64,000 nt of DNA, taken from Pandoraea norimbergensis. GTDB taxonomy: Bacteria > Pseudomonadota > Gammaproteobacteria > Burkholderiales > Burkholderiaceae. The position numbers and the translations under genes were made by a program. The stretch is from positions 2,728,001 to 2,792,000 of the forward strand of contig NZ_CP013480.3 in NCBI RefSeq assembly GCF_001465545.3, given 5' to 3'. Of the stretch, positions 57,660 to 64,000 are shown piece after piece. Within the stretch, counting starts at the first letter, position 1. Each line of letters begins with the position of its first letter. The notes under the pieces are model-generated. The model saw only the letters and a program-made list of their open reading frames with translations, made no database searches and was not told where the DNA came from.

Positions 57660-59216
57660 TTAGTTTGTGCCGGTAATGCCTGCGACAGCAACATCCAGTC
57701 GTTGCCCGGCCGACGACAGTGCCGACGTGCGTTGAGACAGGTGCGCCTGCTCCTGATCCAGTTCCTTGCGAGCCTGCGCAATCATGCGTTTCACAGACGC
57801 CGGGGCAGGGCCGCCGATGCCATCCCGGCGGGCCACATTTCGGACCGGGTCCAACGCGTCGCGCACTGAGGCTTCAGAGATACGAACCGTGTGGCCAAGT
57901 TGCTGCTCGGCGGCGCGCCTGACCATGTCGACGGTGATCTGGTCGGCGCTCAAATTTGCCTGAATGGCCGAATCCACCACTTTCGCTACGATTTCATGCG
58001 CGTCGCGGAAGTCGATGCCCGAGTCGCGCACGATCGCGTCGGCCAGATCCGTCATCGTCGAATAGTTCTTGGCCGCGTCACGCAACATCTGCGCCTTGTT
58101 CACGTGCAGCGATTGCACGACACCTGTCATCGCCCGCGTCGCAGCGATCATGCCGTCGATGGAGCGCGGTTCCAGCGCAACGCGCGCCACGCTGTGTTGA
58201 TACTCGATGCCATTGAGCGACACCAGAATGGACGTCAACGCGCCGACGCTATTCGCGGCGATGGCCCGGGTGCGCTCGATAGAATCCGGATTCTTCTTCT
58301 GCGGCATGATGCTGCTGATGCCCGCGTAAGCGGAATCGAGCTCCGCCAACCGGTACTCGTCCGTCGTCCAAAGCTGGATTTCAGAACCGAGTCGTCCGAG
58401 GTCGCTCAGGTAGATCGCGTTATCGGCAGCGAATTCCGTAATGTGATCCCAGCCGGCGGTGCCTTCGATCGTATCGACGACGAGGCTGTCGAAGCCGAGA
58501 AGACTGGCCGTGCGCTCACGATCCAGCGGCCAACCGGTGCCTGCGGAGGCCGCTGCGCCAAGTGGGCTCTGGTTCATGCGGACATAGAGCTCCTCGTACC
58601 GGTCGATGTCCTTTTTCAAGGCTTCCGACAGCGCCATCAAGTAGTGGCCAAGGGTAATCGGTTGCGCTTCCTTTCGGTGGGTGTAGACCACCATCACCGT
58701 GTCGATGTTGTCTTCGGCTTTATCAATGACGGCGGTACGCAAGGCAATCAATGCTGTGACCGTCCGGTTGATCTGGTCGCGATAGAACATGCGATTCACC
58801 GTGTTCGCGAGGTCGTTGCGGCTGCGTCCCGTATGCATGCGGCCTGCCACGGAACCGATCTCCTTCACGAGCGCGGCCTCGTAGGGCAGGTAGGTGCGCA
58901 GGCTGGCGTCGTCTCGCGCCCGCGCATCGATGGTGTCGAGGCCGGTGAGGATCTTGCGCGCATCGTCCCGGCTGATGATCCCTTTCTCCGCGAGCATGAC
59001 GACGTGCGCGCGGTGCACCCGAACCTCATAGGGAAAGGTGGCGTCCGGCAGCGTCTTCGCGGCCGAGTCGAAGTCATAGAGCGCTTGAAAACCCGGCGCC
59101 TTGGGCACCGACGTTCTGCCGATGCGGCTGGCATCGGGCGTCTGTGCGTGTGCGGCCCATGAAAGGCAAAGCACGGCGGCGGTGACGAGACGCAAAGCGA
59201 AAGGTGTACGGTTCAT
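57660..59216 (-). CDS. Argininosuccinate lyase family protein with signal peptide
   Basis: A 518-residue member of the fumarase/aspartase superfamily closest to argininosuccinate lyase. The signature loop is GISSIMPQKKNPDSIERTRA near residue 300. Other parts are AGRMHTGRSRNDLANTVNRM near residue 127, YTHRKEAQPITLGHYLMALS and LGAAASAGTGWPLDRERTA, all in the order seen in ArgH. The N terminus (TPFALRLVTAAVLCLSWAAHAQTPD) is a clear Sec signal, so the protein should act in the periplasm. ArgH is normally a cytoplasmic enzyme of about 460 residues. The frame is open to 59255; ATG 59216 starts the signal. A LysR gene is divergent. Its substrate is probably not argininosuccinate. Confidence 0.88.
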   Translation of the reverse strand: MNRTPFALRLVTAAVLCLSWAAHAQTPDASRIGRTSVPKAPGFQALYDFDSAAKTLPDATFPYEVRVHRAHVVMLAEKGIISRDDARKILTGLDTIDARARDDASLRTYLPYEAALVKEIGSVAGRMHTGRSRNDLANTVNRMFYRDQINRTVTALIALRTAVIDKAEDNIDTVMVVYTHRKEAQPITLGHYLMALSEALKKDIDRYEELYVRMNQSPLGAAASAGTGWPLDRERTASLLGFDSLVVDTIEGTAGWDHITEFAADNAIYLSDLGRLGSEIQLWTTDEYRLAELDSAYAGISSIMPQKKNPDSIERTRAIAANSVGALTSILVSLNGIEYQHSVARVALEPRSIDGMIAATRAMTGVVQSLHVNKAQMLRDAAKNYSTMTDLADAIVRDSGIDFRDAHEIVAKVVDSAIQANLSADQITVDMVRRAAEQQLGHTVRISEASVRDALDPVRNVARRDGIGGPAPASVKRMIAQARKELDQEQAHLSQRTSALSSAGQRLDVAVAGITGTN

Positions 59217-59359
59217 CGATTTTCTTTTTGAGTTAAGTACGGGTGAACTGACCATGGTTGCGTTTGTCTCCAGTCAGTGCGCTGGCACGGCAGTTCAGTG
59301 CTGGCTTGCGGTATTCTTCCGCATATCAACCGGCTGAAATAGCGATACTTTCTCCACCA

Positions 59360-61426: not shown

Positions 61427-63205
61427 TCATTGAAGCACGATGCCGCTCACGTCTTGTGCACGCGCAGCCGCTGCGGCCAATCGTTGGGGATCATTACCGT
61501 GGACACGCAGCAATGCGTCACCGGCTCGCACCGATTGCCCCGTGGCGCAAAGCAGATCGACACCCGCGCCCATGTCGGTGGGTCCGCCAGCGTCGCGGGC
61601 AATGCCGGAGACTTCCCAGCCATCAATGGAAGCCACTACGCCGTCTGCCTGTGCAACGATGTCGACGAACGAAGCAGCGGGCATGGCGAAATCTTTTCGG
61701 CCTTGCGCATCGACAATGCGCTCGAAGGCGCGTCGCGCTTCGCCGCTCGCCAGCAGTTGTTCTGCGGTGGCGTGCGCCTTCACAAGATCACCGCCCAGTG
61801 CCGGATGCCACGACAGAATGCGGGCCGCAAACGTCAACGCCTTGGCGCGCAGATCCTTGGGGGCAGTCGCATCGTTGTCGAGCACCTGTAGCACGTCGCG
61901 CAGTTCCAGCGCAGGGCCGATGCCGCGGCCGATCGGTGCGCGTCCGTCGGTGGCGAACGCCTGCACGGTCATGCCCAACGCCGCGCCCACACGTTCAAAG
62001 AGTGCGCCCAACTTTCGCGCTTGCGCCTCATCCGTCATCTTCGCTTGCGGCCCCCAAGGGAGGTCGACGACGACATGCGTGGAGCCTGCGCAGAACTTCT
62101 TCGACAGAATCGACGCCACCGACCAGCGGCGAGTATCGAGCCTGAGCGGCCGCACCATCGCGTTGGTCACGTCGTCAACGCGCGAATGATTGAGCCGGCC
62201 GTTCCATACGATGCAGCCACCGGCTTGCTCGACGGCGGCACGTACCTCCGCGGCATCGAGATCCACCCGCGCCGCCGCTTCCATGGCGTCGGCAGTCCCG
62301 GCGGCAGAAGTGATGGCGCGTGATGATGTTTTCGGCATGCAAAGTCCGTACGCGACGACGAGCGGCACGACGATCAGCGTGATGCGACTGCCGGGCACAC
62401 CGCCCATGGAATGCTTGTCGACGACCATCGGCCGCCCCCAGTCGATGCGAGGCATCAACCGCGTTCGCGCCCGGGTGAGCGCAACGATCTCGTCATCGTC
62501 GATGTGCTCGATCAACAATCGCAGCAGCGCCTCGCCCTCATCCGGGGCGTAACGGTCATACATCAGATCGTCGAGCAGTTGTCCCCACGAGGCTTCATTG
62601 AGCGATACCCCCGTACGCTTGGCGTCAGCCAATTCGCGACTTTTTGGTGGCTGCGCACAGGCCTGCAACGCAGCGGTGAAGCGCGCGATGCCGACGTCGC
62701 TCGTGCTGTCGTTCGACACACGCACGAGCGGCACGCCGGCGGGATAAGCCGTCACGGTGCGAGCCAGCCGTGCAGCGATCTGTTCGGGTGTTTCGCGCCC
62801 GCGTCCTGCGATGCGCGCGGCGAGAACTTCCACCGGCGCGCTGACTTCCACAATAACCAGCCGCTGCACACGGCCGATGAGTTTGGGCAGGATGGCCCGC
62901 GAGCCATTGGCGACGACATGGCGGCCTTGCGCTAATACGTCACGCAAGCTGGCATCGAGCCCGTAATGCAGCCCGTGGGCTTGCCAGGTCACCAGAAACG
63001 CGCCCGCAGCATCACGTGCGGCGAACTCGGCCTCGGTGACACCGATGTGGGCTTCCCCCGGGGCATCGTCAGCGCGCGTGATGGTGCGCGTCGCGAAGAC
63101 GAAGCGGCCGCCATCGGTCAGGCACGTGCGTGCGCCGTCGATCAGCGTATCCTTGCCGGCCCCGCTGGGGCCGACCACGAAGAAGAATATCCCGGGGAGC
63201 GTCAT
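61427..63205 (-). CDS. Fusion of PhnN-like ribose 1,5-bisphosphate kinase and type-2 thymidine/AMP phosphorylase
   Basis: A 592-residue two-domain protein. Residues 1-185 are PhnN-like: FFFVVGPSGAGKDTLIDGAR (P-loop), RFVFATRTITRADDAPGEAH and a lid with RETPEQIAARLART. PhnN makes PRPP from ribose 1,5-bisphosphate and ATP. Residues about 205-592 belong to the nucleoside phosphorylase family: MVVDKHSMGGVPGSRITLIV, then LCMPKTSSRAITSAAGTADA and GRAPIGRGIGPALELRDVLQ. The KTSSRAITSAAGTAD block is that of archaeal AMP phosphorylase and type-2 thymidine phosphorylase. AMP phosphorylase yields ribose 1,5-bisphosphate, the PhnN substrate. The type-2 N-terminal domain (about 80 residues) is replaced by PhnN. 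AAGGGAT precedes ATG 63205. It lies 16 bases after nadC. Confidence 0.88.
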   Translation of the reverse strand: MTLPGIFFFVVGPSGAGKDTLIDGARTCLTDGGRFVFATRTITRADDAPGEAHIGVTEAEFAARDAAGAFLVTWQAHGLHYGLDASLRDVLAQGRHVVANGSRAILPKLIGRVQRLVIVEVSAPVEVLAARIAGRGRETPEQIAARLARTVTAYPAGVPLVRVSNDSTSDVGIARFTAALQACAQPPKSRELADAKRTGVSLNEASWGQLLDDLMYDRYAPDEGEALLRLLIEHIDDDEIVALTRARTRLMPRIDWGRPMVVDKHSMGGVPGSRITLIVVPLVVAYGLCMPKTSSRAITSAAGTADAMEAAARVDLDAAEVRAAVEQAGGCIVWNGRLNHSRVDDVTNAMVRPLRLDTRRWSVASILSKKFCAGSTHVVVDLPWGPQAKMTDEAQARKLGALFERVGAALGMTVQAFATDGRAPIGRGIGPALELRDVLQVLDNDATAPKDLRAKALTFAARILSWHPALGGDLVKAHATAEQLLASGEARRAFERIVDAQGRKDFAMPAASFVDIVAQADGVVASIDGWEVSGIARDAGGPTDMGAGVDLLCATGQSVRAGDALLRVHGNDPQRLAAAAARAQDVSGIVLQ

Positions 63206-63221
63206 CGTCGATATCCCTTGA

Positions 63222-64000
63222 TCAGGCGTCGTCCAGACCGATATCGACGGCCGGGGCCGATTGCATGATCTTGCTCGTCGAGATGTAGTCGACGCCGGTT
63301 TCGGCGATCGGACGAATCGTCTCCAGACGAATGCCGCCCGAAGCCTCGACCTTGCACTTCCCGCCAATCATCGCAACCGCCTTCTTCATGTCTTCAACCG
63401 ACATGTTGTCGAGCATGATGACGTCTACGTCGGTCTCCAGTGCTTCAGCGACCTGATCGAGACGATCGCATTCGACTTCCACCTTGGTCAGCATCGGCAC
63501 GAGTTTTCGTGCGCGCGCCACGGCGGCCGTGATACTGCCGGAGACGGCGATGTGGTTGTCTTTGATCATCACGCCGTTATCCAGCCCCAGACGGTGGTTC
63601 AGCCCGCCGCCGCAGCTCACCGCATGCTTTTCCAGCATGCGCAGGCCGGGCGTCGTCTTGCGGCTGTCGAGCAGCCGAGCGCGCGTGCCTTCGATGGCAG
63701 CTACGTAGCGGGCCGTCTCGTTGGCGATGCCGCTCATGCGCTGCACGATGTTCAGTGCGGTGCGCTCCGCCGTGAGAATGCTGCGGGCATTGCCGGACAC
63801 ATGCAGCAAAATGGCACCCTTCGGGGCGTGCTGCCCGTCGCGCACCTTCACGTCGACCTTGAGCGTCGGGTCGTATCGCAGGAAAATTTGTGCCGCAACG
63901 TCGATGCCGGCAACGATCACCGGCTCGCGGGCATTCATCACGAAGGCACCCGTAGCAGATTCGTCGATCATCGTCTGCGCCGTGAGGTCGCAATAGCCGA
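63222..64000 (-). CDS. nadC: Nicotinate-nucleotide pyrophosphorylase (carboxylating), N terminus outside window
   Basis: A NadC protein of which 259 residues are visible; the frame runs past base 64000. The first codons visible read GYCDLTAQT, the D-L-T-A element of the N-terminal domain. LLDSRKTTPGLRMLEKHAV, then CGGGLNHRLGLDNGVMIKDN, and near the C terminus VEASGGIRLETIRPIAETGV all match quinolinate phosphoribosyltransferase. It joins quinolinate and PRPP to give NaMN, CO2 and PPi in de novo NAD synthesis. A ModD-type homologue is less likely. The PhnN-phosphorylase fusion follows at 16 bases, which could supply PRPP. The ATG 63971 is internal, not the start. Confidence 0.9.
   Translation of the reverse strand, partial: GYCDLTAQTMIDESATGAFVMNAREPVIVAGIDVAAQIFLRYDPTLKVDVKVRDGQHAPKGAILLHVSGNARSILTAERTALNIVQRMSGIANETARYVAAIEGTRARLLDSRKTTPGLRMLEKHAVSCGGGLNHRLGLDNGVMIKDNHIAVSGSITAAVARARKLVPMLTKVEVECDRLDQVAEALETDVDVIMLDNMSVEDMKKAVAMIGGKCKVEASGGIRLETIRPIAETGVDYISTSKIMQSAPAVDIGLDDA

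Follow-up and report, generated by a model that had tools for sequence, protein, structure and literature searches.

One end of the window, the 64,000-nucleotide stretch of the 6.17 Mb Pandoraea norimbergensis genome that we analysed, carries two genes read in the same direction on the minus strand. The downstream gene is a single unbroken frame (61427–63205) of 592 amino acids that starts at the ATG at 63205; the longest frame in the ORF list, 646 residues from a TTG, begins 54 codons too early. The reading frame, profile matches and a fold model together mark its product as a fusion of a predicted PhnN to an AMP-phosphorylase-type enzyme, as a sequence-only reading had recognised. A spacer of 16 bp (63206–63221, minus strand), with an AGGGA-type ribosome site just before the fusion ATG, separates it from an upstream quinolinate phosphoribosyltransferase gene, here called nadC2 (63222–64000, minus strand), and the position and direction that had been claimed for nadC are confirmed. 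nadC2 is cut by the window edge, and its full 277 residues are encoded at L082:6223–7056. The protein scores 309–321 bits against TIGR00078 (NadC), above the cut-off, and aligns to solved QAPRTases, which places it in this family. Elsewhere in the window (57660–59255, minus strand) lies an argininosuccinate-lyase family protein (TIGR00838, 354 bits, cut-off 279.5) with an apparent secretion signal at its start.

The N-terminal half of the fusion (residues 5–180; 62666–63193, minus strand) matches the PhnN profile TIGR02322 with 173.3 bits (cut-off 156) and contains the motif GPSGAGKD, which we take to be the P-loop. This half is predicted to be a PhnN-type ribose 1,5-bisphosphate kinase. It would not be assigned to PhnN by operon membership, as the gene sits outside any C-P lyase operon. 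None of the neighbours scanned was identified as a phn gene, and the C-P lyase genes PhnG and PhnH lie with a separate PhnN about 2.1 Mb away in the same genome, so that the location outside phosphonate breakdown proposed earlier holds. In databases the fusion protein is named either PhnN or thymidine phosphorylase, and once 'multifunctional fusion protein'.

The C-terminal half (residues 187–592; 61430–62647, minus strand) is of the NMP/AMP-phosphorylase type. Its score is above the cut-off for the NF003338 'thymidine phosphorylase' subfamily (517 bits, cut-off 434) and below it for TIGR02645 (386 bits, cut-off 434.6), the AMP_phos equivalog TIGR03327 (338 bits, cut-off 535) and the thymidine phosphorylase profile TIGR02643 (111 bits, cut-off 570.7). 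The nearest solved relatives by E-value are structures of Thermococcus kodakarensis AMP phosphorylase, 4ga5 first and then 4ga4 (E ~1e-67). An AlphaFold model of the fusion (mean pLDDT 90.8) superposes on 4ga4, an N-terminal deletion mutant, with a TM-score of 0.92 (normalised to target length). The phosphate-side motifs DKHSMGGVPGSR ... PKTSSRAITSAAGTAD (residues 263–306; 62288–62419, minus strand) are conserved in the alignment as invariant columns, and both fold and phosphate-side motifs are those of an AMP phosphorylase. One bacterial stand-alone gene of the family named thymidine phosphorylase, L162:6093–7634, scores above the TIGR02645 cut-off and contains the AMP-phosphorylase motifs; genes of this sort may be NMP phosphorylases. 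In two genomes a second gene, distantly related to the phosphorylase half with 30% identity, lies some 3.4–4.6 kb from the fusion (L144:12177–13496 and L146:11420–12838).

The phosphorylase half appears to be altered where the base should bind while retaining its phosphate motifs. The base-side segment of AMP phosphorylase, WGG..L.PADD..I, is replaced throughout the fusion clade, and the replacement in the window (residues 335–361; 62123–62203, minus strand) is fusion-specific against 18 stand-alone enzymes. Comparison of 37 fusion with 18 stand-alone sequences gives clean differences at six positions (R247, A301, N335, H340, N348 and W361 in the fusion), with one fusion deviating at 348 and one at 361. 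The T. kodakarensis enzyme has the residue commonest among stand-alone enzymes at 247, 335, 340 and 348, the fusion residue at 301 and neither at 361. In human thymidine phosphorylase the residue aligned with N348 is a tyrosine that forms part of the base pocket, and from the alignment with this enzyme we infer a base-binding role for segment 335–361. The model is weakest in the changed region (pLDDT 67–76 at residues 331–360), and the change alone does not point to NaMN as the substrate.

The window fusion is also a short form. Stand-alone enzymes have an N-terminal domain of about 95 residues, for which an HMM search gives no match in the window fusion; among the fusions compared the domain is matched between PhnN and phosphorylase in 13/37, with no match in the other 24/37. 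The archaeal AMP phosphorylase is said, in the paper on 4ga4, to require this domain for activity, a point against the cycle proposed below. A phosphorylase tree separates the fused enzymes from the rest by a branch that has 100/100 support, though the program warns of long branches, and the short form demands at least two changes on it.

The fusion and nadC form a family with an invariant partner. In a survey of 398 genomes of the bacterial family, 87 had NF003338 above the cut-off, stand-alone and fused genes mixed. From 51 fusion-like picks 40 were taken into a set of 60 distinct loci, the remainder of which came from other searches; the 11 left out include G389 and G002, with in-frame stop codons. 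nadC lies upstream on the same strand in all 60 loci examined and also at three plasmid loci, which strengthens the tie to NadC first suggested from the window. The two halves share one frame in 59/60 loci and occupy two frames in L014. Kept apart from the 60 are L022, where the contig ends within the PhnN half and leaves nadC and the beginning of that half (the genome of L022, G1148, is counted with the 19 genomes from outside the family considered below), L020, with PhnN alone, L155–L157, which duplicate L003–L005, and L244, which repeats L150; L140 and L141 share one genome. For the 60 loci, the plasmid loci and L022 together, the gap between the nadC and PhnN matches is 9–61 bp in 44/64 and 1.0–2.2 kb in 20/64 (L119–L138), the longer gap mostly holding a divergent MarR-family gene (one member scanned). 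We considered a Cupriavidus-type MarR regulator as a close relative of BpsR and found weak matches only. Another recurrent neighbour of the cassette is a gene for an FRG-domain protein, which occurs at 12 loci (one member scanned), including L008, L011 and L144, and is also annotated on the Variovorax plasmid L290.

Wider surveys recovered few further fusions. Among 369 genomes of a class sample, 52 matched at E <= 1e-110, and, judged by which part of the query was covered, the sole fusion was that of the window's own genome; the other matches cover the phosphorylase part, four of them beginning somewhat earlier, three of these four with stop codons. A phylum sample of 398 genomes gave 21 matches at the same threshold, with five fusions, two of them already known. 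PF02885 matches within the window's own genome were unproductive as leads, one being YbiB-like. The three plasmid loci were examined among 30 listed of 78 matching plasmid records. By annotation the order is MarR/nadC/fusion/TctC in Variovorax (L290) and TRAP/nadC/fusion in Pacificitalea (L291), and by alignment the nadC–fusion order is the same in Paraburkholderia. Since the cassette, with its own uptake genes, sits on plasmids (L290 and L291), it may move between genomes.

In P. norimbergensis the cassette comes on top of a de novo set: an ordinary nadC, the second in this genome, is located with nadA and nadB. The copy comparison covered 38 fusion and 10 non-fusion genomes in one search, and the window's own genome separately. 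The fusion-linked nadC is present in 39/39 Burkholderiaceae fusion genomes and the ordinary one as well in 38 of them, G183 having the linked copy only; three copies of nadC occur in G325 and G335, and in G379 the third is broken. All ten non-fusion genomes have ordinary nadC only. Linked and ordinary nadC (37 and 21 sequences) form separate clades with 100/100 support, a split that is partly a matter of sampling because all ordinary sequences come from Burkholderiaceae. Outside the family, 16/19 cassette genomes have a single nadC match that scores like the linked kind; of the others, G1140 has two linked-like copies, G1146 a linked copy and a fragmentary one beside nadA, and G1141 pieces only. 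nadA was found in 12/12 family genomes tested and was not found in 13/19 cassette genomes outside the family (12/18 without G1148), most of these 13 being MAGs, with G1128 and G1118 rated complete. In these genomes nadC2 may be used to make NAD from imported quinolinate. The nadC of L009, a MAG labelled Bordetella parapertussis, clusters tightly with Zwartia, and the label may be wrong.

The surroundings of the cassette point to pyridine-acid catabolism. Upstream of nadC2, past the window, are genes for an MFS transporter, an XdhC-family protein, a cytochrome-c protein taken for a NicB-type subunit, a 2Fe-2S NicA-type subunit and an alpha/beta hydrolase, together with NicC (solved match 5eow, E 3e-169), NicE (4fq7, E 9e-110) and NicX (7cn3, E 1e-119). 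Among three non-fusion Pandoraea, the Nic cluster without the cassette is kept in L294 and L295 and partly in L293. At >=70% identity NicX is present in 37/39 family fusion genomes versus 18/41 non-fusion genomes of the same genera (Fisher p 5e-7, ignoring kinship); within genera the p values are 0.003, 0.018, 0.036 and 1.0. In 11 of these 39 fusion genomes the distance between NicX and the fusion is 6–10 kb. Outside the family it was found in 1/19 cassette genomes at 71% identity, with two more at 44%, which rules it out as a universal partner of the cassette.

Outside the family a second marker takes this place. In Jezberella the fusion is flanked by an enamidase (solved match 2vun, E 8e-112) and by a protein with named homologues annotated as 6-hydroxynicotinate reductase, which indicates a nicotinate pathway different from the nicA-X type. 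The enamidase occurs at >=59% identity in 14/19 outside cassette genomes (13/18 without G1148), in both family fusion genomes that are without NicX (the enamidase survey tested 11 of the 39) and in 6/38 non-fusion genomes; in eight cassette genomes no more than 12 kb separates it from the cassette. One or other marker is present in 54/58 cassette genomes (53/57 without G1148), at identity thresholds chosen after the lists were seen, and within 12 kb of the cassette in 19/58; G1048, G1128, G1138 and G1144 have neither at these thresholds. Genomes without the fusion can have nicotinate catabolism too (NicX in 18/41 and the enamidase in 6/38 non-fusion genomes), and the annotation of the Variovorax and Pacificitalea plasmids shows no nicotinate genes within 12 kb of the cassette. 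The co-occurrence may mirror a common taste for pyridine acids.

Genes for uptake of the quinolinate type appear to go with the cassette. At locus L119, putatively Cupriavidus, a TctC-family protein is encoded directly after the fusion, and its nearest solved relative is Bug27 (2qpq, E 3e-108). Binding of quinolinate in vitro is reported for both Bug27 and Bug69 (PMC11452294). On the Variovorax and Pacificitalea plasmids nadC–fusion is directly adjoined by TctC or TRAP genes, and in Bosea TRAP genes are found upstream.

We propose, with a probability of about 0.58, that nadC2 and the fusion together make up a quinolinate-utilisation cassette that recycles PRPP. The NadC route spends one PRPP per quinolinate and ends at NaMN, so a cell catabolising nicotinate by this route would need to cleave NaMN and rebuild PRPP; a phosphorylase joined to a PhnN kinase would do both, which is why we prefer NaMN over NMPs as the substrate. 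NadC2 would convert imported quinolinate and PRPP to NaMN, CO2 and PPi, the phosphorylase half would then act in the direction of cleavage, turning NaMN and phosphate into nicotinate and ribose 1,5-bisphosphate, and the PhnN half would use ATP to rebuild PRPP, possibly with channelling between the two halves. The net reaction would be quinolinate + ATP + Pi -> nicotinate + CO2 + ADP + PPi, with PRPP as a regenerated carrier that enables the C2-decarboxylation of quinolinate. The nicotinate would enter nicA-X type degradation in most Burkholderiaceae and the 6-hydroxynicotinate reductase/enamidase type in the Alcaligenaceae-like and Bosea genomes. In genomes that lack nadA, part of the NaMN may also be used for NAD. 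Taken whole, as a catalytic nucleotide-carrier cycle that makes quinolinate a food by way of two unrelated nicotinate pathways, the scheme has in our judgement slightly better than even odds. It is supported by the nadC linkage, the separate nadC2 clade, the changed base segment, the nicotinate markers and the uptake genes. Against it count the four of 58 genomes with neither marker, the single NicX among 19 outside genomes, the post-hoc thresholds and the p value blind to kinship, as do the occurrence of the markers without the fusion, the nadA-less genomes, which fit NAD salvage, and the plasmids without nicotinate genes.

The main rival of the cycle is an NMP route for NAD, in which the phosphorylase half would split AMP, CMP and UMP and PhnN would make PRPP for NadC2, giving NAD from quinolinate. 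Its best support comes from the cassette genomes in which nadA was not found (13/19 of those outside the family), and the linkage of the fusion to nadC also counts for it. E. coli PhnN is reportedly linked to NAD synthesis, to go by the title of Hove-Jensen 2003. The replaced base segment of the fusion clade argues against ordinary NMPs, the substrates suggested by the sequence-only reading, and NaMN fits better, even if the nearest characterised relative is an archaeal NMP phosphorylase (PMC9700705). The route also leaves unexplained both the association with nicotinate catabolism and a second nadC beside a nadA-nadB-nadC set. In Jezberella a prs-like gene about 4 kb upstream of the cassette (L016 831–1802, identified by eye) suggests that PRPP is probably made anyway. 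We consider this route unlikely. NAD synthesis as the purpose of the pair, also put forward earlier, is not supported: in 38 of 39 Burkholderiaceae fusion genomes an ordinary nadC is present besides the cassette, and the cassette goes with nicotinate catabolism. The nadA-less outside genomes come closer to that idea.

In a second alternative, NMN from NAD turnover would be split to nicotinamide and ribose 1,5-bisphosphate, and PRPP would be recycled within pyridine-nucleotide salvage. The replaced segment can be argued in the same way for NMN, and the NAD-linked context and the many members without nadA agree with it; the constancy of NadC as the partner is left unexplained, however, and the neighbour proteins scanned include none named as nicotinamidase or PncB, which makes this route improbable. 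That the protein is a thymidine or pyrimidine nucleoside phosphorylase with an unrelated or inactive PhnN half, as its database name 'thymidine phosphorylase' would have it, is very improbable given phosphate motifs and a nearest fold of the AMP-phosphorylase type, a PhnN half that scores above its curated cut-off and shares a frame with the phosphorylase in 59/60 loci, and a joined chemistry that would be sensible only for a 5'-phosphorylated substrate.

If the proposed carrier cycle is correct, a protein known in databases as PhnN or thymidine phosphorylase would gain a function, a phosphorylase that cleaves NaMN would join the known enzymes, and PRPP would be seen to serve catabolism as a catalytic carrier that is regenerated. 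Second nadC copies and orphan quinolinate-binding proteins would then be accounted for as well. We know of no NaMN phosphorylase so far, and this would be the first. The component families are known; neither the fusion, nor the second nadC that constantly accompanies it, nor the carrier cycle is described in the literature found, in a search judged by titles and the starts of abstracts.

Several known systems resemble parts of this arrangement. The archaeal AMP/NMP phosphorylase (T. kodakarensis TK0352; 4ga4/4ga5) has the same fold and the phosphate-side motifs KTSSRAITSAAGTAD and HS.GGVPG, whereas the enzyme here is fused to PhnN, is a short form without the N-terminal domain, has a replaced base segment and falls below the TIGR03327 cut-off. 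PhnN kinases share with the fusion half a score above the TIGR02322 cut-off, but the fusion stands outside a C-P lyase operon, and it is the genome's separate PhnN that lies beside PhnG and PhnH. In the archaeal pentose bisphosphate pathway, or NMP shunt (PMC9700705), a phosphorylase likewise yields ribose 1,5-bisphosphate, which there leads to ribulose 1,5-bisphosphate; here PRPP would be the product, and the logic of the earlier suggestion, from ribose 1,5-bisphosphate to PRPP, is supported. Closest in context is the salvage of quinolinate in Bordetella by NadC with Bug69 and Bug27, where nadC similarly lies beside TctC/Bug genes, and the same account notes that bug27 adjoins nadC and phnN in Variovorax and Jezberella (PMC11452294). 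The Jezberella phnN next to bug27 is the PhnN::phosphorylase fusion. The term 'phosphorylase' is absent from the main text of that paper by a term search (PMC11452294), and it is the recycling of PRPP and the link to nicotinate catabolism that we propose here.
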